10,768 nucleotides of DNA. Source: Chloroflexota bacterium. GTDB lineage: Bacteria > Chloroflexota > Anaerolineae > UBA3071. The notes beneath the pieces are model-generated. The model was not told where the DNA came from, did not search any database, and saw only the letters and a program-made list of their open reading frames with translations. Positions 2,437-10,768 of the stretch are shown one piece after another. The DNA is taken from positions 1 to 10,768 of the forward strand of contig JACNHM010000199.1 in the NCBI GenBank assembly GCA_014383605.1, given 5' to 3'. Positions within the stretch are counted from its first letter, which is position 1. The number at the start of each line of letters is the position of its first letter. The position numbers were made by a program, and so were the translations under genes.

Positions 2437-3447
2437 ATGAAACTCAGGAAATTCAGTTGGCTGATCGGTGCGCTGATCGTGTTGGTGCTGCTGATCACGG
2501 CCTGCGCGCCGCCAGCGGCAGCCCCCGCTGCTGCCAAGCGCTGCGCGGGCGTGAAGATCGTCTTCTTCCCCGGCGGGCCGCCCGGTTGTCCTTTTGCCAC
2601 CGTCGTCTACAACGGCGCCGTGGCTGCCGCCGAGGACTTGGGCGCTGATGTGGAGTACATGTGGTCGGACTGGAACACCGAGAAGATGGTCCGCCAGTTC
2701 CGAGAAGCCGCGGCCACCAACCCCGACGGCATCGCCATCATGGGCCATCCCGGTGATGACGCCTTCGAGACCGTGGTTGACGAAGCCCGCGCCAAGGGGA
2801 TCGTCGTCACCAGCCAGAACACCACCTTGCCCCGGCTGGAGGGAAGGTACAAGTCCGACGGCTTCGGCTACGTAGGCCAGGAGCTGTACGAGTCCGGTTA
2901 CATGCTGGGCACGGAGGCGCTCAAGAGGAGCGGCCTCGGCTCAGGCGATCGAGCCATGGTCTGGGGGCTGCTGGCCGAGCCGACCCGCGGGCTGCGCACC
3001 AAGGGCGTCATTGACGCCTTGGAAGAGGGTGGCATGACCGTGGACTACCTGGACATCGACTCGGCGACCAACGCCGACGCCACCGCCGGCACCCCGGTCT
3101 TCACCGGCTACGTGTCGGCGAACCCCGATGTCAAGCTGGTCTGCACTGACCACGGCGGCCTGACCGCCACCCTGGAGACCTACCTGAAGGCGGCGGGCAA
3201 GGGCCCGGACGACATCTACGGCATCGGCTTCGACCTCTCCTCGGCCACGTTGGAGGCCATCCGCGGCGGCTGGACGGACCTGGTGCTCGACCAGCAGCAG
3301 TGGCTGCAGGGCTATCTGCCCATCGTGCAGATCTGCCTGACCGATCTGTACAAGTTCTCCGGCCTGCACATTGACACCGGTTCCGGTTTCGGCCACAAGG
3401 ACAACGTCGAGATCCTGGCCGAACTGGTGGAGAAGCAGATCCGGTAG
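2437..3447 (+). CDS. CUT2 sugar ABC transporter substrate-binding lipoprotein (RbsB/FrcB type)
   Basis: A 336-residue periplasmic-binding-protein family (Peripla_BP_4) lipoprotein that would capture a monosaccharide outside the membrane and deliver it to the CUT2 permease. The signal peptide has basic K-L-R-K, a hydrophobic core, and a lipobox L-I-T-A-C with the lipidated Cys at residue 23, followed by a short Ala/Pro linker. The first domain begins with V-K-I-V-F-F near residue 39; family-typical elements are G-A-x-A-A-A-E-D-L-G-A at about 60-70, D-G-I-A-I near 97-101, and L-D-Q-Q-Q near 284-288 close to the hinge. Cys36 and Cys51 are close enough to form a disulfide. ATG 2437 is chosen because AAAGGAGG lies seven bases upstream and the signal peptide starts there; the open frame extends further upstream (to 2233) but without a signal peptide. 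The next gene is the matching ATPase, 130 bases on. Confidence 0.93.
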   Translation: MKLRKFSWLIGALIVLVLLITACAPPAAAPAAAKRCAGVKIVFFPGGPPGCPFATVVYNGAVAAAEDLGADVEYMWSDWNTEKMVRQFREAAATNPDGIAIMGHPGDDAFETVVDEARAKGIVVTSQNTTLPRLEGRYKSDGFGYVGQELYESGYMLGTEALKRSGLGSGDRAMVWGLLAEPTRGLRTKGVIDALEEGGMTVDYLDIDSATNADATAGTPVFTGYVSANPDVKLVCTDHGGLTATLETYLKAAGKGPDDIYGIGFDLSSATLEAIRGGWTDLVLDQQQWLQGYLPIVQICLTDLYKFSGLHIDTGSGFGHKDNVEILAELVEKQIR

Positions 3448-3545
3448 ATTGGGAAACTGGTAAATTGGTAGATTGGGAAACTGGTAAATTGGGTGATGGG
3501 GTTAGCAGAGCCCAAGATACCAATGTACCTATCTACCAATTTACC
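3447..3545. repeat. Strand-flipping octamer repeat array, copy 1
   Basis: Six consecutive eight-base units lie at 3447-3494: GATTGGGA, AACTGGTA, AATTGGTA, GATTGGGA, AACTGGTA, AATTGGGT. The first 48 bases counted from 3445 are also a perfect two-copy tandem of 24 bases, and the first copy begins on the TAG stop of the lipoprotein gene. After a spacer, units on the other strand follow at 3518-3545: TACCAATG, TACCTATC, TACCAATT, TACC. GGTAAATTGGTAGAT (3459-3473) is exactly complementary to 3531-3545, so the RNA could fold into a 15-bp stem with a 57-base loop. It fills most of the gap before the ATPase gene. It shares its unit with the array at 9357-9442. Confidence 0.85.
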
Positions 3546-3577
3546 CCCTGGTGCAGTACTACCCAGGAGATGGCTGT

Positions 3578-4333
3578 ATGGATTACATGCTTGAGATGAG
3601 AAACATCTCCAAGCGCTTCGGGGAAGTGCAAGCGCTGTGCGATGTGGACTTTGCCGTCGCCCCCCGCGAGGTTGTGGGATTAGTGGGCGACAATGGCGCC
3701 GGCAAGTCCACGCTCATCAAGATCGTCACCGGCTATCATCAGCAGGATAATGGCGACGTCTACTTCAAGGACCAGAAGCTGGGCGATCTTTCTGTGGCTA
3801 AGGCCCGGCAACTGGGCATCGAAACGGTGTACCAGGAACGGGCCCTCGCCGACCTGCAGACCCTGTGGCGCAACATCTTCATGGGGCGGGAGCTCACCAC
3901 CCGCTACGGCTTCCTGGACGTGAAGGGGATGAGGCGGGAGACAGAGAAACTGATGGTCGGCTCCATGGGCTTCACGTCGGCCGCTGTGGCCGCCGATTCT
4001 GTGGTCCGCACTTTCTCGGGTGGCGAAAAACAGGGTGTCGCCATCGTGCGGGCTTTGCACTTCGATGCCGAGCTTATCATCCTGGATGAGCCGACCATGG
4101 GATTGTCGCTGTCGGAGACCAGGAAGCTGCTGGATTTTGTGGGCGGGATCAAAGAAGCCGGCAAGTCGTGCATATTCATTGATCACAACATATTCCACGT
4201 GTACTCCGTCGCCGAAAGGGTTGTGGTCTTGGACAGAGGTATGGTGGCCGGTGAGTTCCTGACCAGGGACATCACTCTGGATCAGCTTGTGGACAAGATG
4301 TATCGGGTGGCGCGAACGGGAAGTATTGATTGA
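3578..4333 (+). CDS. CUT2 sugar ABC transporter ATP-binding protein, single domain (FrcA type)
   Basis: A 251-residue ABC ATPase that powers the neighbouring sugar importer on the cytoplasmic face. Walker A is G-D-N-G-A-G-K-S-T at about residues 37-45, the Q-loop glutamine is in V-Y-Q-E-R (Q86), the signature is S-G-G-E-K near 147-151 (usually S-G-G-E-R or S-G-G-Q-Q), Walker B ends L-I-I-L-D-E-P-T with catalytic Glu171, and the switch histidine is His203 in I-D-H-N. The D-loop region has G-L-S-L-S-E-T, typical of sugar CUT2 ATPases. Most ribose/xylose-type ATPases are fused duplicates of about 500 residues; this one has one nucleotide-binding domain, like FrcA of the fructose system, and presumably works as a homodimer. 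ATG 3578 is preferred over the upstream GTG at 3551 because AGGAG lies eight bases before it. Confidence 0.92.
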   Translation: MDYMLEMRNISKRFGEVQALCDVDFAVAPREVVGLVGDNGAGKSTLIKIVTGYHQQDNGDVYFKDQKLGDLSVAKARQLGIETVYQERALADLQTLWRNIFMGRELTTRYGFLDVKGMRRETEKLMVGSMGFTSAAVAADSVVRTFSGGEKQGVAIVRALHFDAELIILDEPTMGLSLSETRKLLDFVGGIKEAGKSCIFIDHNIFHVYSVAERVVVLDRGMVAGEFLTRDITLDQLVDKMYRVARTGSID

Positions 4334-4411
4334 CATAATATTGCGTGCGCCGTCAGTGAACGCGTATGCGGCAGAAGCGTCCTGGTTATCATCATCGCCA
4401 AGGGAATTGAA

Positions 4412-5416
4412 ATGACCTCACCTTCTCATGCCCAAGAACCGGCGCGTCGTTCGGCCAACCTGGCCAGGGTTGCGCGCACGTACGGGCTGCAGATCGGCAT
4501 CGTCTGTGTCCTGCTGGCGATATGGGGGGTGTTCATCATCGGCGCGCCGCAGACGTTCCTTTCTTCCGAAATCTACCGCGCCTACATGTCCACGATACCG
4601 TTCTTCGCGGTCATGGCCCTGCCACTGACGATGGTGGTGATCGCCGGCGAGATGGACCTGTCATTTCCATCCATCATGGCCATGGGCATGCTGGTGTTCG
4701 TCAGGGTCTTCGCGGCCACCGGCAGCGCGTTCCTGGCTTTCATCCCGTGTCTGGCGGCCGGCTTCGTGATCGGGCTGCTGAATGGGGTCATCGTGGTCAA
4801 GTTGGGCATCCCCTCGCTGGTGGCCACCATCGGCACGCAGTTCTTCTGGCGGGGGGCGGTCCTGGTCATCACGGGCGGCAGGCCTGCTTCGCTTGTGCCG
4901 TTGAAGACGACGATCCTGCACGAAGCGCTGGTGGGCCGACTGGCGGGCTACCTGCCGGCCCAGATGATCTGGACGATCGTGGTGGCGGTGCTCGTCTGGC
5001 TCTTTCTGAACCGCCACAAATTCGGCGCCCACGTGTACCTCATCGGGGACAACGAGGACAGCGCCCGGCTGATGGGGGTCAACGTGGCCCGCACGAGAAT
5101 GATGGCCTTCGCTTTGGTCGGTCTGGCGGCGGCCTTTGCCGGCGTCCTGGCCAGCCTGGAGGTGAACTACTACTGGGTCACGTTGGGCGAGGGGTATCTC
5201 ATGAGGACGCTGGCCGCCGTGTTCCTGGGCGGCACGTCGGTGTTCGGCGGCACAGGGACTGTTCTAGGAACCTTCGTCGGCTGCTTCATCATCGGGGCCA
5301 TCGAAGCGGGCATCGTGGCCATCGGCCTGACCGGTTTCTGGACGCAGTTGCTGTATGGCTTGATCATCATCATCTCCGTGTCCATGCACGCCGCGTTGAG
5401 CAGAAGGTTGGAGTAG
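4412..5416 (+). CDS. CUT2 sugar ABC transporter permease (RbsC/FrcC type)
   Basis: A 334-residue membrane protein of the branched-chain amino acid/ribose permease family (BPD_transp_2), forming the channel for the sugar bound by the upstream lipoprotein. After a polar N-terminal tail, the first membrane segment is at about residues 27-45. The hallmark V-I-A-G-E-M-D-L-S at about 76-84 corresponds to the T-G-G-I-D-L-S element of RbsC. The cytoplasmic coupling region appears as G-D-N-E-D-S-A-R-L-M-G-V at about 212-223, and the conserved F-L-G-G-T-S-V-F-G-G-T-G-T at 271-283. Eight to ten hydrophobic segments are expected. ATG 4412 follows AAGGGA with about six bases between. The 78-base gap behind the ATPase gene holds nothing recognisable. 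A GTAG stop is followed after 28 bases by the first URO-D-like gene, so the two are almost certainly co-transcribed. Confidence 0.93.
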   Translation: MTSPSHAQEPARRSANLARVARTYGLQIGIVCVLLAIWGVFIIGAPQTFLSSEIYRAYMSTIPFFAVMALPLTMVVIAGEMDLSFPSIMAMGMLVFVRVFAATGSAFLAFIPCLAAGFVIGLLNGVIVVKLGIPSLVATIGTQFFWRGAVLVITGGRPASLVPLKTTILHEALVGRLAGYLPAQMIWTIVVAVLVWLFLNRHKFGAHVYLIGDNEDSARLMGVNVARTRMMAFALVGLAAAFAGVLASLEVNYYWVTLGEGYLMRTLAAVFLGGTSVFGGTGTVLGTFVGCFIIGAIEAGIVAIGLTGFWTQLLYGLIIIISVSMHAALSRRLE

Positions 5417-5444
5417 GGCAGTCGCTGGGAGGTGCGGTGGGGGG

Positions 5445-6560
5445 ATGAAGCATCGGGATCGAGTGTTGATGGCGCTCAGCCACGAGGAACCGGATCGTTG
5501 TCCCCTGCAGATCAGCTTCACGCCGGAGTTCGCTTCCCGCCTCAAGGACGATCTGGGGCTGACCGACGAAGATCTGCACAACCCCCACGGCGGCGGCAAC
5601 ACCTACGCCCTGGAGCGCGCCCTGGACGAAGATATGCTCCTGACCTCGGTGGGCTGGGCCAATTCCTACTACGCCACCGATGCCTACAGCGACGACGGCC
5701 TGTCCTACACCGACGAGTGGGGCGTGGGCTGGCGGAACGTCGCCTACGAGACCCGCTTCGGCACGGGCCACTACACGGAGATGGTGGGGCATCCCCTGGC
5801 CGAGGACGCCGCGATTGAATCCTACCAGCCGCCCGATCCGCACCGGCCGGAGCTGTACACTGAAGCGGCCAGGGTCATCGAGGATTTCCAGGACGAGTAC
5901 TGGATCGTGGGCGTGACGGTCACGACGATCTGGGAGACGGCCTGGGCGCTACGGGGATACGAGCGGGCGCTGATGGATTTGGCCCTCCATCCCGACCTGA
6001 TGGAGCGGATTCTGGACATCCCGTTCAGCTACCACCTCACCGCCGCCCAGAAGCTGGTGCAGATGGGCGTGGACATGATCTGGATCGGGGATGACGTGGG
6101 CGCCCAGCACCGGATGCTCACCTCCCCCGCCACCTGGCGCCGCTTCTTCAAGCCGCGGATGGCAACGTTTATCTCGAAGCTGAAAGGCAGCAATCCCGAC
6201 GTGAAGGTCGCTTACCATTCGGATGGGGCCATTGATCCCATTATCCCCGACCTGATCGAGGTCGGACTGGATGTGCTCAACCCCGTCCAGCCGCGGAGCA
6301 TGGATCCCGCCCGGCTGAAACAGGCGTACGGGGACAACCTGTGCTTCTGGGGTTCCATTGACGAGCAACACACCCTGCCCTTCGGCACGCCGGCGGAGGT
6401 GCGGCAGGAAGTGATCACCCGGCTGCGGACGCTGGGCCAGGGTGGGGGCTTGATCATCGGACCGACCCATCACGTCCAGTTGGACACGCCGCTGGAGAAC
6501 TTCTGGGCCATGGTCAATACCGTCAGGAACACGCCCTACGGTTCCTTGTGGCGCGGCTGA
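5445..6560 (+). CDS. URO-D superfamily protein (COG0407-like), first copy
   Basis: A 371-residue TIM-barrel protein of the uroporphyrinogen decarboxylase superfamily, which also holds methylcobamide:coenzyme M methyltransferases (MtaA, CmuA). The family opening is clear: R-D-R-V-L-M-A-L-S-H-E-E-P-D-R at residues 4-18. Later elements are G-D-D-V-G (215-219), Y-H-S-D-G (257-261), L-N-P-V-Q (278-282), F-W-G-S-I-D (301-306) and T-P-L-E-N (348-352). The R-Q-A-G-R motif of true haem enzymes is absent, so haem synthesis is unlikely. Zinc-binding methyltransferases use H-x-C and a distal Cys; here the site reads H-S-D and the distal position is T-H-H, so that zinc site is not intact. Function is unknown. 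It sits 28 bases after the sugar permease, with GGGAGGT upstream of ATG 5445, which suggests a role in metabolising the imported compound. Confidence 0.85.
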   Translation: MKHRDRVLMALSHEEPDRCPLQISFTPEFASRLKDDLGLTDEDLHNPHGGGNTYALERALDEDMLLTSVGWANSYYATDAYSDDGLSYTDEWGVGWRNVAYETRFGTGHYTEMVGHPLAEDAAIESYQPPDPHRPELYTEAARVIEDFQDEYWIVGVTVTTIWETAWALRGYERALMDLALHPDLMERILDIPFSYHLTAAQKLVQMGVDMIWIGDDVGAQHRMLTSPATWRRFFKPRMATFISKLKGSNPDVKVAYHSDGAIDPIIPDLIEVGLDVLNPVQPRSMDPARLKQAYGDNLCFWGSIDEQHTLPFGTPAEVRQEVITRLRTLGQGGGLIIGPTHHVQLDTPLENFWAMVNTVRNTPYGSLWRG

Positions 6561-6594
6561 GTCAGAGCCTGAGACTCCCGTGCGTCGAACAGAA

Positions 6595-6652
6595 GTGACG
6601 AAAGACGAACGACGAAGGACGAATTCGTCGTTGGTCCTTCGTCCTTCGTCGT
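6595..6652. repeat. Strand-flipping heptamer repeat array
   Basis: Four seven-base units on one strand, GTGACGA, AAGACGA, ACGACGA, AGGACGA (6595-6622), are followed by AT and then four units of the reverse complement type, TCGTCGT, TGGTCCT, TCGTCCT, TCGTCGT (6625-6652). The switch point makes a GAATTC palindrome at 6621-6626. Shifted by two units, 6609-6623 and 6638-6652 form a perfect 15-bp stem with a 14-base loop. No T run follows, so it is a poor terminator. It lies between the two URO-D-like genes and ends 25 bases before the Shine-Dalgarno of the second. Confidence 0.82.
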
Positions 6653-6689
6653 CCCTTTGGAGATGCTGGCCTGTGCGGAGGGAAGCCCG

Positions 6690-7838
6690 ATGAGACCGCG
6701 AGACAGAGTGATGCTGGCCCTGAATCACCAGGAGCCCGACCGCATTCCCATTGATCTGGGTGGGACGATTTGCTCGTCCATCCACAGAAATGCCTACGTC
6801 GAGCTCAAGAAGCACCTGGGCATGGCGGTGGAGCAGCTCCGGATGGCCGACTACGTCCAGCAACTGCCCTATCTGGACGAGGCCCTTCTGGAGCGGTTCG
6901 CTGTGGACTTCCGCATGGTGCAACTGCCGGCGGCCACGGCGCCGGACGTGGCCATCTTCGAGGAAGGGGAGTACTATGCTCTCATTGACCGCTGGGGCTC
7001 AAAACTGCACATGCCCAAAGAAGGCGGTCTGTACTTCGACTGGGTGGATTTTCCCATCCGGGAAGCGACCATGGAGGCCCTGGACAGCTACAGTTGGCCG
7101 CGGCCAGACCCTCCGGAGGCCATCGCCGGCCTTCGCCAGCAGGCCCGATACCTCTATGAGCACACGGACTACGCCCTGGTAGGCAATGCCATCATCGGCG
7201 GCGGCATCTTCGAGCAGCCGGCCCGCACCATGGGGTTGGAGAGCTTCCTCATGGCCTTGATACAGGAGCCGCAGTTCGCCGACCGGCTGATGGAGCAGAT
7301 CACCGACATCTACATCGAGTCCTGTAACAACTACCTGGATCAGGTGGGCGAATACCTGCAGGTGTTCTGCTACTGGGACGACGTAGCGGGGCAGGATGGC
7401 TGGATCATCTCGCCGCAGATCTACCGCCAGATGGTCAAACCCAAACAGCGCCGCCTGCTGGAGGCCATCAAACGCAAGACGGACGCCAAGGTCTACTACC
7501 ACGGCTGCGGGGCGGTCTTCGACCTGATCCCCGATCTGATTGACCTGGGCTTCGACATCCTCAACCCCGTGCAGGTCTCCGCCCGCGGCATGGACACCCG
7601 GCGGCTCAAGCAGGAGTACGGCCGGGACATCACCTTCTGGGGCGGCGGGGTGGACACCCAATACGTGCTGCCCTTCGGCTCGCCGCAAGAGGTGGCCGAC
7701 GAGGTCAAGCGCCGCATTGACGACCTGGCTCCGGACGGCGGTTTCGTCTTCGCTGCCGTGCACAATATCCAGGCCTTGGTTCCACCGGAAAACATCGTCA
7801 CGGTGTTGGAGACGGCGCTGGAGTACGGGCGATACTAG
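6690..7838 (+). CDS. URO-D superfamily protein (COG0407-like), second copy
   Basis: A 382-residue paralogue of the preceding protein, with the same opening R-D-R-V-M-L-A-L-N-H-Q-E-P-D-R (residues 4-18). Matching elements are W-D-D-V-A-G (229-234), Y-H-G-C-G (270-274), L-N-P-V-Q (291-295), F-W-G-G-G-V-D-T (316-323), V-H-N-I-Q (357-361) and V-P-P-E-N-I (364-369). It keeps the H-x-C pair (His271, Cys273) that binds zinc in MtaA-type methyltransferases, while the distal Cys is replaced in the V-H-N-I-Q stretch, where His358 might substitute. The haem-enzyme R-Q-A-G-R motif is absent. The middle region (residues 20-180) differs widely from the first copy, so this is an old divergence, not a recent duplication. 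ATG 6690 is chosen because GGAGGGA lies six bases upstream; a TTG at 6657 and an ATG at 6663 in the same frame lack a site. Function is unknown. Confidence 0.86.
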   Translation: MRPRDRVMLALNHQEPDRIPIDLGGTICSSIHRNAYVELKKHLGMAVEQLRMADYVQQLPYLDEALLERFAVDFRMVQLPAATAPDVAIFEEGEYYALIDRWGSKLHMPKEGGLYFDWVDFPIREATMEALDSYSWPRPDPPEAIAGLRQQARYLYEHTDYALVGNAIIGGGIFEQPARTMGLESFLMALIQEPQFADRLMEQITDIYIESCNNYLDQVGEYLQVFCYWDDVAGQDGWIISPQIYRQMVKPKQRRLLEAIKRKTDAKVYYHGCGAVFDLIPDLIDLGFDILNPVQVSARGMDTRRLKQEYGRDITFWGGGVDTQYVLPFGSPQEVADEVKRRIDDLAPDGGFVFAAVHNIQALVPPENIVTVLETALEYGRY

Positions 7839-7903
7839 CAAATCGGCAAATCACAAATCGGCAAATCACAAATCTGCAAATCGCAAATCTGCAAATCTGC
7901 AAA
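7838..7903. repeat. Direct 7/8-base repeat array filling an intergenic gap
   Basis: The whole gap consists of units GCAAATC or ACAAATC, most with one extra base, giving alternating spacings of 8 and 7: GCAAATCG, GCAAATC, ACAAATCG, GCAAATC, ACAAATCT, GCAAATC, GCAAATCT, GCAAATCT, then GCAAA. Three 15-base super-units run from 7846 to 7890. The array starts on the last base of the TAG stop codon (7836-7838) and its last GCAAA runs directly into the Shine-Dalgarno AAAGGAG (7901-7907). All units have the same strand; unlike the other three arrays there is no inversion and no hairpin. Confidence 0.88.
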
Positions 7904-7916
7904 GGAGAAGTTGTTC

Positions 7917-9314
7917 ATGGAAAAGGTAACACTGGGGTTCGTGCCGGCTCACCGCGTGCCCTTCGACGAGGAGTGGGCCATTGACATGCGGCGGCGCACG
8001 CTGGAGGCGCTGGCTCAGGTGGAGGGGCTGGAGGTCGTTGTCCCCGACGAGAACTGGACACAGAACGGCCTGGTGCGGGACGACAACGACGCCGAGGCGG
8101 TGATTGACCTCTTCAGCTCGGCGGGCGTGTCGGGCGTCATCATCGGCGCTATGACCTTCGGCGACGAGATCTCCGCCGTCAGCGTGGCCGAGGCCCTGGG
8201 CGTGCCCGTCCTGCTCTTCGGCACAAAGGAGGGCGAGTTCACTGCTGATGGCAACCGCCGTTCCGATTCCTTCTGCGGCACCCTCTCCATCTCCTCGGGG
8301 CTCTACCGGCGCAAGATTCCCTTCATCTTCGGCGGCATCTTCTTCCCCGAGGAGGAGGAGTTCGTGATCTCGGTGGACGATTTCGTGCGCACCTGCGCCA
8401 TCGCCCAGGGCTTCTACGCCGCGCGCGTCGGGCTGGTGGGGCCGCGGCCGGAGCGCTTCGAAACCTGCGCCATCAACGAGTACCCCATGATCGAGCAGTT
8501 CGGCCAGCGGGTGGTGCCCATCTCGCTGGCGGAGGTGTTTGCCACCGCTAACGGCCTGGCCGACGACGATCCAGCGGTGGCGGACATCGTGGCGCAGACG
8601 TGCGACGCTGCCGATTGCAGCGGTGTGGATCGGACGGCGCTGCTCAAGGCGGCCAAGCTGGAGCAGGTCTTGCTCGCCTGGGCCGACGAGAAGAATCTCT
8701 CGGGCATGGGCGTGCAGTGCTGGACGGCCATGCAGGAAGTCTATGGCATCTCCTCCTGCACCACCATGGGCCGGTTGACGGGGCGCGGGATCATGACCTC
8801 CTGCGAGGTGGACATCCACGGCGCGCTGACCATGCTGGTACAGTACCTGGCCTCCCTGGGCACGACGGTGCCGCACTTCATTGACTGGACGATCCAGCAT
8901 CAAGAGCTGGACGATGTCTTCTTCGCCTGGCACTGCGGCAACGCCCCGCAGGGGCTGGTCTGCCCCGGCTGCACGCCCCGCCTGCGGCCGCACAGCATCC
9001 TGAACCGGCTGGTGGGCGATGAGATATCGCAGGGCACGGGTGAGTTCCAGCTCAAACCCGGCGTGGTGACTCTCAACCGGCTGGTGGAGTACGATGGGCA
9101 GTTCAAGATGCTCATCACCACGGGGGAGATCATTCCCAGCGATCAGGATCTGCGCGGCTCCTGGAGCTGGGTGCAGGTGGACGATCTGGACTACCTCTAC
9201 CGCGTGCTGGTCGAGGAGGGCTTCATCCACCACGCCAGCATGATCCACGGCGACTTCACCGTGCCCATTGCTGACTTCTGCGACTTCGCCGGCATTGAGG
9301 TAGTGATTGTCTAG
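7917..9314 (+). CDS. L-fucose/L-arabinose isomerase-fold protein (COG2407-like)
   Basis: A 465-residue protein related to L-fucose isomerase, probably an aldose-ketose isomerase acting in the cytoplasm before the kinase encoded next. The N-terminal half is Rossmann-like, with V-S-G-V-I-I-G-A near residues 71-78. The catalytic half has a candidate metal-binding set like that of FucI (two acids and a histidine): Glu274 in A-M-Q-E, Asp299 in C-E-V-D-I-H-G-A-L-T-M, and His438/His439 in F-I-H-H-A-S-M-I-H-G-D. A conserved H-C-G-N-A lies at 339-343 and G-T-G-E-F-Q-L-K-P-G at 374-383, the latter starting the barrel that lines the fucose isomerase site. It is shorter than FucI (about 590 residues). 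ATG 7917 is preferred to TTG 7911 because AGGAG (7903-7907) is nine bases from ATG and too close to TTG. Real substrate unknown: L-fucose, L-arabinose, D-arabinose or a modified sugar are all possible. Confidence 0.82.
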   Translation: MEKVTLGFVPAHRVPFDEEWAIDMRRRTLEALAQVEGLEVVVPDENWTQNGLVRDDNDAEAVIDLFSSAGVSGVIIGAMTFGDEISAVSVAEALGVPVLLFGTKEGEFTADGNRRSDSFCGTLSISSGLYRRKIPFIFGGIFFPEEEEFVISVDDFVRTCAIAQGFYAARVGLVGPRPERFETCAINEYPMIEQFGQRVVPISLAEVFATANGLADDDPAVADIVAQTCDAADCSGVDRTALLKAAKLEQVLLAWADEKNLSGMGVQCWTAMQEVYGISSCTTMGRLTGRGIMTSCEVDIHGALTMLVQYLASLGTTVPHFIDWTIQHQELDDVFFAWHCGNAPQGLVCPGCTPRLRPHSILNRLVGDEISQGTGEFQLKPGVVTLNRLVEYDGQFKMLITTGEIIPSDQDLRGSWSWVQVDDLDYLYRVLVEEGFIHHASMIHGDFTVPIADFCDFAGIEVVIV

Positions 9315-9325
9315 CGAAGCTTCGC
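9314..9325. other. 12-bp perfect palindrome after isomerase stop
   Basis: GCGAAGCTTCGC is fully self-complementary without a loop and starts on the last base of the isomerase stop codon TAG (9312-9314). It is too short and loopless for a terminator and no T run follows. It may be a protein-binding site or chance. The bases between it and the repeat array (9326-9356) hold nothing recognisable. Confidence 0.3.
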
Positions 9326-9356
9326 CTCAAACTGATAAGTCTATCCATAGCGCGGA

Positions 9357-9442
9357 AATTGGGAAACTGGTAGATTGGGAAACTGGTGAATTGTGAGACT
9401 GGTGCCAAAGCACCAATCTACCAATGTACCAATGTACCACTG
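9357..9442. repeat. Strand-flipping octamer repeat array, copy 2
   Basis: Six units AATTGGGA, AACTGGTA, GATTGGGA, AACTGGTG, AATTGTGA, GACTGGTG (9357-9404) are followed, after a six-base break, by four units of the opposite strand: CACCAATC, TACCAATG, TACCAATG, TACCACTG (9411-9442). The switch point forms a tight hairpin, GGTGC (9401-9405) pairing with GCACC (9410-9414) around a CAAA loop, with the stem extending imperfectly outward. The last base of the array is the first G of GGGAG (9442-9446), the ribosome-binding site of the kinase gene, so the folded RNA could hinder its translation. The unit is the same as in the array at 3447-3545. Confidence 0.85.
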
Positions 9443-9453
9443 GGAGTGAGAAT

Positions 9454-10768
9454 ATGCCTTTGCACCTCGGATTGGACATCGGCACCACCGGCACGAGGGC
9501 GCTGCTCGTGGACGAGGAGGGGCGCGTCGTGGCCAGTGCTGTGTCCGAGTATCCGTTGTACACCCCACAGCCGCAGTGGGCGGAGCAGGATCCCGCCGAC
9601 TGGTGGCAGGCGACCGCCGAGGCGACGCGCGCCGCGCTGGCCCGCGCTGGCGTGAGCGGCGAAGAGGTTGGCGGCGTCGGCCTTTCCGGCCAGATGCACG
9701 GCGTGGTGCTGTTGGACGACGAGGGTGAAGTGCTGCGCCCGTCCATCATCTGGTGCGACCAGCGCAGCCAACCGCAGTGCGATTGGATCACCGAGCGGGT
9801 GGGCGCGCAGCGGCTCATCGAGCTGACCTGCAACCCGGCTCTCACTGGTTTCAGCGCCCCCAAACTGCTCTGGATCCGGGACAACGAGCCGCGCACGTAC
9901 GAGCGGGGTCGCAAGTTCCTGCTGCCCAAGGACTACATCCGCTTCCAGTTGACGGGAGAGTACGCCAGTGAGGTCTCCGATGCCTCGGGCACGACCCTCT
10001 TCGACGTGCGGCAGCGGCGCTGGTCCGACGAGGTGCTGCGCGCCCTGGGCGTGGATCGCGACCTGCTGCCGGAGGTGTACGAATCGCCCGTCGTGAGCGG
10101 AAAGGTGAGCGCTTCGGCGGCGGCAGCTACGGGGCTGGCCCCAGGCACACCCGTAGTCGGCGGCGGCGGCGATCAGGCCGCCGGGGCCGTGGGCAACGGC
10201 GTGGTGGAGACGGGTGTGCTTTCCTCCACCATCGGCTCCAGCGGCGTGCTCTTCGCCTTCACCGACGAGCCGGTGCTGGACCCGCAGGGGCGCATGCAGA
10301 GCTTCTGCCACGCCGTGCCCGGCAAGTGGCACGTCATGGGCGTGACGCAAGGCGCCGGGCTGTCACTGCGCTGGTTCCGCGACAACTTCGGCGGGGCGGA
10401 GATGCTGGTCAGCAACCTGACCGGCGTGGACCCCTACGTCTTGCTCGACCGGGAAGCGGAGCAAGCGCCCGTGGGCTGCGAGGGCTTGCTCTTCCTGCCC
10501 TACCTGATGGGCGAGCGGGCGCCGCACCTCGACCCCGACGCCAAGGGCGTCTTCTTCGGCCTGACGGCGCGGCACACGCGGCTGCACATGGTGCGGGCCA
10601 TCTTCGAGGGCGTGGCCTACAGTTTGCGGGATTCGCTGGAGATCATCCGCGGCGAGATGGCCATCCCGGTGGAGCAGGTGCGGGCGTCGGGCGGCGGCGG
10701 GCGCAGCGCTCTCTGGCGGCAGATCCAGGCCGACGTTTTCGACACGGAGATGGTGACCATCAACGTGG
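9454..10768 (+). CDS. xylB: FGGY-family sugar kinase, xylulokinase-like (3' end missing)
   Basis: The first 438 residues of a kinase of the FGGY family, open to the right edge; xylulokinases are about 500 residues, so roughly 60 are missing. It would phosphorylate a ketose (D-xylulose to D-xylulose 5-phosphate if the XylB assignment is exact) with ATP in the cytoplasm. The phosphate-binding D-I-G-T-T-G-T-R is at residues 8-15, G-L-S-G-Q-M-H-G at 76-83, W-C-D-Q-R at 100-104, and the catalytic base is probably Asp240 in G-G-G-G-D-Q-A-A-G-A. The M-H-G element is typical of XylB. The start ATG 9454 has GGGAG seven bases upstream. A xylA-type isomerase is not next to it; instead the partner is a fucose-isomerase-like protein, so the real substrate may be another ketose such as L-fuculose, D-ribulose or L-xylulose. 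Confidence 0.9.
   Translation, partial: MPLHLGLDIGTTGTRALLVDEEGRVVASAVSEYPLYTPQPQWAEQDPADWWQATAEATRAALARAGVSGEEVGGVGLSGQMHGVVLLDDEGEVLRPSIIWCDQRSQPQCDWITERVGAQRLIELTCNPALTGFSAPKLLWIRDNEPRTYERGRKFLLPKDYIRFQLTGEYASEVSDASGTTLFDVRQRRWSDEVLRALGVDRDLLPEVYESPVVSGKVSASAAAATGLAPGTPVVGGGGDQAAGAVGNGVVETGVLSSTIGSSGVLFAFTDEPVLDPQGRMQSFCHAVPGKWHVMGVTQGAGLSLRWFRDNFGGAEMLVSNLTGVDPYVLLDREAEQAPVGCEGLLFLPYLMGERAPHLDPDAKGVFFGLTARHTRLHMVRAIFEGVAYSLRDSLEIIRGEMAIPVEQVRASGGGGRSALWRQIQADVFDTEMVTINV

Follow-up and report, generated by a model that had tools for sequence, protein, structure and literature searches.

Dispersed arrays of 7–8-bp units with a prevailing hairpin polarity in operon gaps and genes of Chloroflexota

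Satellites of seven-nucleotide units are known from cyanobacteria, where the heptamer repeats go by the name STRR, and from the Beggiatoaceae, Chloroflexus and Geobacter; the papers cited here for these and other systems are each drawn on in part. In the Beggiatoaceae a single word, TAACTGA, forms 169 direct sets and one inverted set, and a proposed origin cited in the same paper is slippage, with 7 nt as the contact length of the polymerase (PMC4679880). Chloroflexus aurantiacus carries (GATAGRA)n, 22 satellites of a single heptamer (PMC6749651). In Geobacter metallireducens one family, of four or five tandem 7- or 8-mers, lies both within and between genes, and other families are pairs of sites on opposite strands, some of them paired octamers (PMC2700814). 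We describe here arrays of 7- and 8-bp units that fill four gaps of one operon in a 10,768-nt stretch of a Chloroflexota bacterium (contig JACNHM010000199.1, the whole stretch being called the window below), and that recur in related and more distant genomes. The array system is genome-wide and patchily distributed, and the places it occupies tolerate inserted DNA. With a probability of about 0.6, we read the arrays as dispersed, mainly neutral 7–8-bp satellites of a DNA-level, strand-polar origin. Their most informative property, absent from the preliminary description of the window, is the fixed polarity of the hairpins that they form.

Arrays, their scale and the polarity of their hairpins

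The four gaps of the window contain the following arms, delimited with Tandem Repeats Finder (TRF), and for gap 1 also from the sequence; z is the stability of the gap folded as single-stranded DNA relative to shuffles.

3443..3492, plus strand: G-rich arm of gap 1, units GGTAGATT/GGGAAACT/GGTAAATT, with a 24-bp super-repeat
3518..3545, minus strand: C-rich inverted arm of gap 1, TACCAATC-type units (z −6.36)
6597..6623, plus strand: G-rich arm of gap 2, GACGAAG-type heptamers
6624..6650, minus strand: C-rich inverted arm of gap 2 (TTCGTCC), joined to the other arm with no loop (z −3.06)
7838..7903, minus strand, which is the G-rich strand: single array of gap 3, GCAAATC(A/G/T) 7/8-mers, no inverted partner found (z −0.07)
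9357..9404, plus strand: G-rich arm of gap 4, ATTGGGAAACTGGTAG-type
9412..9439, minus strand: C-rich inverted arm of gap 4, ACCAATGT, followed by the Shine-Dalgarno sequence of the sugar kinase gene (z −3.99)

The TRF periods are 8 and 24 in gap 1, 7 in both arms of gap 2, 8 with indels in gap 3 (alternatives 15 and 23), and 16 (9357-9404) and 8 (9412-9439) in gap 4. At a score of at least 40 the window has five period-7/8 rows, against one in total over 200 Markov shuffles. The three word families that the preliminary description had seen in the four gaps are confirmed. Its strand switch in three of the four arrays stands as well, since the partner search and the DNA folding both single out gaps 1, 2 and 4, while gap 3 has neither an inverted partner nor any stability beyond that of its shuffles. 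The boundaries it gave hold for the stop-codon overlap and the Shine-Dalgarno ends; the first array, however, starts at 3443 and not at 3447. The upstream gene's stop TAG (3445-3447) falls within the first unit of gap 1, the first base of the gap-3 array is the last base of TAG 7836-7838 and its 3′ side runs into AAAGGAG, and the gap-4 array ends at 9439, with GGGAG (9442-9446) and ATG (9454) next.

The scale of the system is best seen in the genome of Anaerolineae bacterium A05DMB-I-32 (G001), whose contig JARYMM010000006.1 (L004), found by scanning genome contigs with an isomerase alignment, shares the operon with the window and encodes an isomerase that is 89% identical. Our sample of G001 consists of 80 stretches and L004, 1.463 Mb of 3.8 Mb, and that of G252, whose HdrA is the most similar among the relatives, amounts to 228 kb. 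The G001 sample holds 269 non-redundant period-7/8 arrays (184/Mb), where five Markov shuffles of it gave 0, 2, 1, 0 and 0 rows, and G252 holds 28. The units are tandem 7-mers in the sense of the described heptamer repeats, with 121 TRF rows of period 7 in the first 1.063 Mb of G001, next to 76 of period 8 (0 and 1 in one shuffle). The consensus words of G001 form 46 clusters, of which 21 have at least three arrays and jointly hold 240, whereas uniformly random words give about 151 clusters, with about 113 arrays in those of at least three. Word clusters are thus fewer and fuller than random, which means that the same words recur at many loci. With this excess over shuffles, and with arrays across the G001 sample and in other genomes, the general repeat system that the preliminary description had envisaged is upheld against one confined to the locus.

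Where an array has an inverted partner, the order of the two arms is strongly biased. Over eight data sets, 154 of 167 hairpins are G-first, that is, the G-rich strand runs 5′ to 3′ into the centre, and 13 are C-first. The G-first to C-first counts are 3:0 in the window, 66:6 in G001, 8:0 in G252, 37:4 in G170 (a further genome rich in one of the words), 2:0 in 19 relatives, 4:0 in 78 loci of several phyla, 33:3 in 62 stretches from IMG/VR and 1:0 in cyanobacterial plasmids. The IMG/VR contigs, which may be viral or host, include at least five duplicates (L259/L317 and L267/L277 carry identical hairpins), and the count becomes 149 of 162 (149:13) when these five are removed. The same bias emerges when arrays are oriented by their G-rich strand and partners are sought within 90 bp at a score of at least 12. 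An inverted partner then lies downstream of 86 and upstream of 8 of the 263 G001 arrays, and downstream of 10 and upstream of 0 of the 27 in G252 (263 of 269 and 27 of 28 were kept; those with equal G and C, N or short flanks were dropped). Shuffled flanks contain no inverted partner at this score, and 3 and 2 at a score of at least 10. Ordinary intergenic inverted repeats of G001 have ratios of 76:80 (arms of 10) and 28:30 (arms of 12), in a control that also took in N runs and equal-skew arms, which neither side of the ratio contains. A palindrome has the same sequence on either strand, and its polarity therefore belongs to the DNA strands rather than to the direction of transcription. The word CCGCAWT has the G-first order in all 18 hairpins of nine IMG/VR stretches (13 without duplicates), and the strand order of each word looks fixed. 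As rules for the polarity, purine-richness (139:23) fits worse than G over C (154:13), and A over T fails (71:92).

These counts bear directly on the simplest alternative, in which the arrays are ordinary slippage satellites like the cyanobacterial heptamer repeats and hairpins arise when two of them come to lie side by side by chance. Period 7 does dominate, as such an origin would have it; chance juxtaposition, however, predicts both polarities about the centre, and it leaves unexplained why direct partners within 90 bp are so rare in G001 (2 and 0 of 263) where inverted ones are common. We therefore consider this account very improbable.

Placement, turnover and the case for function

By Pfam, the genes of the window form a cluster for the uptake and metabolism of sugars, with two BPD_transp_1 permeases, a binding protein, an ABC ATPase and a further permease, together with two URO-D-family proteins, an L-fucose-isomerase-like protein and an FGGY kinase. 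The genes that border the gaps are as follows.

2437..3447, plus strand: periplasmic sugar-binding protein (Pfam Peripla_BP_4), precedes gap 1
3578..4333, plus strand: ABC transporter ATPase (Pfam), follows gap 1
5445..6560, plus strand: uroporphyrinogen-decarboxylase-family protein (Pfam URO-D), precedes gap 2
6690..7838, plus strand: second URO-D-family protein (Pfam), between gaps 2 and 3
7917..9314, plus strand: L-fucose-isomerase-like protein (Pfam Fucose_iso_C, homologues), between gaps 3 and 4
9454..10767, plus strand: FGGY-family sugar kinase (Pfam), truncated by the window end, follows gap 4

None of these or the other genes of the window contains a period-7/8 TRF row, so the earlier statement that genes are untouched is right for the window. 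It does not extend to G001, where, set against the intergenic location of STRR-type repeats, units are enriched between genes and yet 94 of 247 (16 hairpins and 78 single arrays) fall in predicted genes, an upper count that may in part reflect over-long predicted starts or linkers. With genes called by our own codon-score script (1154 in G001), the 72 G001 hairpins are distributed over tandem gaps (51), predicted genes (16), convergent gaps (2), divergent gaps (2) and an edge (1), while of the 175 single arrays 83 are in tandem gaps, 78 in genes, 5 in divergent and 4 in convergent gaps, and 5 at edges. Divergent gaps thus hold 2 of 55 intergenic hairpins, though they make up 29 of 172 kb of gap sequence. 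For hairpins in tandem gaps, the median distance is 4 bp from the upstream stop to the hairpin and 25 bp from the hairpin to the next start; the few that lie far from genes are probably beside uncalled ones. The placement between stop codon and Shine-Dalgarno sequence that had been noticed in the window therefore recurs, with 39 of 51 starting within 30 bp of the upstream stop (12 do not) and 31 of 51 ending 5–31 bp before the next start (20 do not). Since operon spacers are short, this is the expected look of insertion between two essential signals, and it needs no function.

Inside genes, the clearest case is a 1571-aa HdrA-like fusion protein of G001 (L102:571-5286), which has five period-7/8 arrays in frame. 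They translate to repeat peptides such as QSAIRNPQSAI, and database peptides that resemble it may be array translations. Eight more distant HdrA homologues, when aligned, are without most of the array insertions, though in L157, L158 and L160 some of these positions are taken up by insertions of another kind; in the HdrA of G252, one of these loops carries another word and a second is N sequence. Furthermore, an open reading frame (ORF) taken by sequence for a nonribosomal peptide synthetase contains a GTTCGG hairpin in frame, and nine further array-bearing ORFs all have Pfam domains. Among them, a xanthine-dehydrogenase-like protein has a pair of opposite arrays, under the hairpin threshold, that falls between two of its domains, and two other ORFs have arrays within the stretch covered by a PolyA_pol and a DUF2079 domain, respectively. 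The intergenic autocorrelation at lag 7 is small (0.280 against 0.266 in coding sequence), partly because many arrays lay within called ORFs, and it was this small signal that led to the discovery of the in-gene arrays. As a separate observation, G252 (L172, contig C9) has extra sequence relative to G001 between alignment blocks, about 430 bp against 45, at the site matching L102:535-580; the additional sequence resembles a short ORF, one that might encode a four-helix-bundle-like protein.

Comparison of genomes shows that the arrays turn over rapidly. In the same gaps of L004, unit numbers, words and presence all differ from the window: in gap 1 the GGTAGATT hairpin is retained but differs in its unit numbers, gap 2 still has GACGA-type units on the outside, with a GTTCGG-type hairpin nested between them (by eye), gap 3 has three to four units in place of about eight, and gap 4 has no period-7/8 array. 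L004 also has a perfect 18-bp tandem repeat of 3.2 copies at 16059-16115, unlike the 7–8-mers. Of 40 collinear sites in G001 and G252, six were dropped for N runs. Among the 34 readable ones, at a TRF score of at least 34, arrays are present in neither genome at 21, in G001 only at 6, in G252 only at 4 and in both at 3 (23, 6, 3 and 2 at a score of at least 40). One of the three sites occupied in both retains the same word. Inverted arrays in the same gap of both genomes occur at C45:100535, with the same word, and at C45:170746, with a different one. On a wider scale, a census of three tandem copies of CCGCAWT, which tests one word, matched 5 of 251 Chloroflexota genomes including G001, the rich ones being G001 (94 overlapping hits) and G170 (15). 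When 20 genomes (19 relatives and G170) were examined de novo, one stretch per genome, arrays turned up in 6. Array density per Mb is 19 in the 78 loci of several phyla, 30 in the 19 relatives, 184 in G001 and 494 in G170 (95 arrays, 41 of them hairpins), figures that are not fair estimates where stretches were picked for carrying one word, as were part of the G170 and all of the IMG/VR stretches.

The preference for operon gaps could also be taken to mean that the arrays are selected intercistronic RNA hairpins, which tune stability or translation between operon genes while their sequence drifts. The proportion of G001 hairpins in tandem gaps and their start at the stop codon are in keeping with this, as are the two gap sites with inverted arrays in both genomes. 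We nevertheless regard it as unlikely. First of all, the sense strands of hairpin arms in tandem gaps have 63 G-U and 72 A-C mismatches (with 94 transversions and 1228 matches), and coding hairpins lean the opposite way, with 21 and 15, in few cases. Selection on RNA pairing should spare G-U, and the near equality in tandem gaps thus gives no sign of it. Second, presence is not conserved, either at the collinear sites or in gap 4 of L004, and many arrays are single-armed or lie in genes. Third, the polarity of a palindrome that reads alike on both strands cannot serve one direction of transcription. Finally, terminator-like sites between 3400 and 9500 number 2, against 3.0 in shuffles, one in gap 2 on the minus strand and the other within a gene, so that the stem and T-run of a terminator are found on the sense strand of none of the four gaps; an Rfam scan of the window at gathering scores gave zero matches. 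On our reading the operon-gap arrays would be scars rather than regulators, which readers of such gaps could mistake for regulatory hairpins.

Arms, loops and a DNA-level origin

How a hairpin comes by its second arm can be approached through the likeness of its arms, which was tested in hairpins of listed word families (44 of 72 in G001, 23 of 41 in G170). In G170 an arm resembles its own partner more than the arms of other hairpins of the same word (0.911 against 0.806, permutation p 0.0002, 23 hairpins), and so do the pooled arms of G001 (0.713 against 0.661, p 0.04, 44 hairpins). In the GGTAGATT family of G001 (n=10) there is no such likeness (0.640 against 0.638), and two small families fall below their controls. 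The templated addition turning around at a hairpin that had been suggested for the window may thus apply, as it would fit the arms of G170 but not those of the G001 family with the most hairpins tested. An earlier form of this test, by loose clustering, merged families and was replaced, the same hairpins being used in both. The medians had suggested that arms have a set length near 31 nt, an idea that was dropped, as arms in G001 and G252 range from 12 to 189. Loops have median lengths of 13 and 11 nt and in G170 are mostly unrelated between loci (similarity 0.439 within a word, 0.402 between words), the GAGGCAAC family of G001 and the AGTCGAC family of G170, which share loops, being partial exceptions. 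Some neighbouring opposite arrays under the hairpin threshold are unlike in word or unit length, namely AGGCAACG/CCTCTTG at L101 and GTTCGGC/AACCTGG at L116. On contig C47 of G001, two GGTTTCA-type arrays (L111:19118 and L112:17488) are each followed by a shared stretch of about 50 bp, with a loop score of 53, which may be a repeat element of its own.

We infer that the arrays come from growth of 3′ ends at breaks or from fold-back copying. In the first case, the process would lengthen only one strand polarity, namely 3′ ends that bear the G-rich word, and might act at sites such as double-strand breaks or stalled forks, where an existing array could be copied from or slipped on to extend the broken end. 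One extended end would leave a single array, and two extended ends joined head to head would leave a hairpin. Such growth on one or both sides of a break, followed by joining, would account for the polarity, the single arrays, the independence of arms, the nesting and the neutral placement together. In the second case, slippage would make the single arrays, and a nascent G-rich strand would fold back and copy its own array into a mirror arm across a short loop. We hold this version to be possible, if tentatively so; it is another form of the same DNA-level, strand-polar core and overlaps with the reading we favour. It fits the arm likeness within hairpins, the short loops and the way in which G170 loops of one word differ by locus, as if each hairpin formed anew, and the G-first order follows if only G-rich nascent strands fold back. 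It fits less well with the GGTAGATT and two small families or with the unlike neighbours at L101 and L116, and by itself it does not explain the spread of the same words to many loci.

That spread is what would be expected of palindromic mobile elements (REP/REPIN, miniature inverted-repeat transposable elements or elements like the Rickettsia palindromic ones) moved by a transposase, with arms that became repetitive secondarily. The in-gene insertions are reminiscent of Rickettsia palindromic elements, some loops are shared, and G001 and G252 each have one gene with a Y1 transposase domain (Y1_Tnp). These elements remain a doubtful source, given that loops are mostly unrelated between copies and that 175 arrays in G001 are single against 72 hairpins. 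Within about 3.2 kb around each of the two Y1 genes, moreover, there is no period-7/8 row of score at least 40, so that the flanking arrangement of REPINs is not seen; at the Y1 locus L213 there is a single 15-bp row of period 7, with a score of 30.

The G-inward order may reflect a poorly known mode of growth or healing of bacterial DNA. Fusion of telomeres gives a head-to-head geometry, and bacteria might similarly heal broken ends in a telomerase-like manner, with G-rich tandem repeats added to 3′ ends that are then joined, so that head-to-head arrays would be the scars. We think this unlikely; if true, these genomes would be a natural archive of telomere-like sequences at interstitial sites in organisms other than eukaryotes. 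As to an enzyme of this kind, with its template RNA, one reverse transcriptase (RT) gene with an RVT_1 domain (PF00078) is found in G001. It is an ORF at L147:1285-3048 (contig C78), preceded by an N-rich stretch in the same frame, and by eye it looks like a diversity-generating RT. Its best plasmid matches are cyanobacterial RNA-directed DNA polymerases, and the closest one opened adjoins an annotated avd gene. RT genes are also found at two places in G252 (contigs C253 and C74) and three in G170 (C147, C63 and C497).

Several points weigh against strand-polar growth and joining as we propose it. First of all, slippage alone could explain growth, and the arm likeness within hairpins (G170, G001 pooled) fits fold-back copying better than two additions. 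Second, the 13 C-first hairpins largely go by word: those of CAAAGC/CAAAATC (3), CCCCC-type (2) and AGTCGAC (4) words follow their word, so G-richness is no absolute rule. In one exception, SL139, the word is in its usual GACGAA order and only its composition is ambiguous. Counted by word family in G001 and G252, the polarity is just 14:3 with one mixed (p 0.013), and among ordinary inverted repeats with arms of 8 there is already some excess of the G-first order (152:110). Gap 4 of L004, moreover, carries an inverted repeat that is not an array and is C-first by eye. Third, no clean empty site showing breakpoints was found among relatives, which differ by about 18% in DNA. Finally, no enzyme was identified, the RT of G001 looking like that of a diversity-generating retroelement, and Ku was not found in the incomplete assemblies of G001 or G252; the genomes are fragmentary metagenome-assembled ones, with gene calls from our codon-score script.

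The arrays among known repeat systems

Our understanding of these arrays gains from setting them beside what has been described. REP, BIME and REPIN sequences are dispersed palindromes between genes. The arms here are instead tandem 7–8-mers of many words, single arms are common, and a REP/REPIN palindrome is copied as a conserved unit, whereas the G170 loops mostly differ within a word family. Insertion in frame into protein genes, as in the HdrA-like and xanthine-dehydrogenase-like proteins, is shared with Rickettsia palindromic elements; the conserved sequence of their copies is not, since relatives have different words at the same site. Eukaryotic interstitial telomeric sequences are short internal tandem repeats inserted at double-strand breaks (PMC7215372). 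As in telomere-repeat insertions, the G-rich strand of inverted pairs runs 5′ to 3′ to the junction, with the 13 exceptions given above. Unlike them, the arrays consist of many words, not one, and no telomere or telomerase has been identified in these bacteria. The telomerase-like antiphage RTs of DRT10 systems produce RNA-templated tandem-repeat DNA, with a 9-nt period in one system and other lengths elsewhere; that product is a protein-primed cDNA, where ours are chromosomal arrays, but it shows bacteria to possess such a chemistry for tandem-repeat DNA (PMC12632851).

Among the bacterial tandem repeats, the Geobacter elements have been interpreted as binding sites of regulators or as regulatory RNAs, and polarity and word turnover go unmentioned in the part of that paper drawn on (PMC2700814). 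The Chloroflexus satellites are likewise heptamers of Chloroflexota, with no strand-flipped design described in the corresponding part of their source, whose text nowhere uses the word hairpin (PMC6749651). In the open-licence literature, as far as the parts drawn on extend, we found no description of the polarity together with many words, in-gene copies and fast turnover. A common polarity across more than a dozen words and several lineages points to one physical mechanism of DNA growth, and the insertion of arrays in enzymes yields repeat peptides and over-long ORFs. With STRR and the Beggiatoaceae TAACTGA repeats the arrays share their 7-nt units, many dispersed intergenic sets, a patchy occurrence among distant lineages and some copies in ORFs (PMC4679880). 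The direct orientation of those repeats is not found here, with 72 hairpins among 269 arrays in G001 and 41 among 95 in G170. Among the cyanobacterial plasmids scanned, a small sample, 1 of 12 arrays has an inverted partner, in line with the strand flip as the distinct trait that the preliminary description had taken it to be. Compared with STRR and TAACTGA, the present system has about 21 word clusters in one genome and both 7- and 8-mers, and its hairpins are common and polar.

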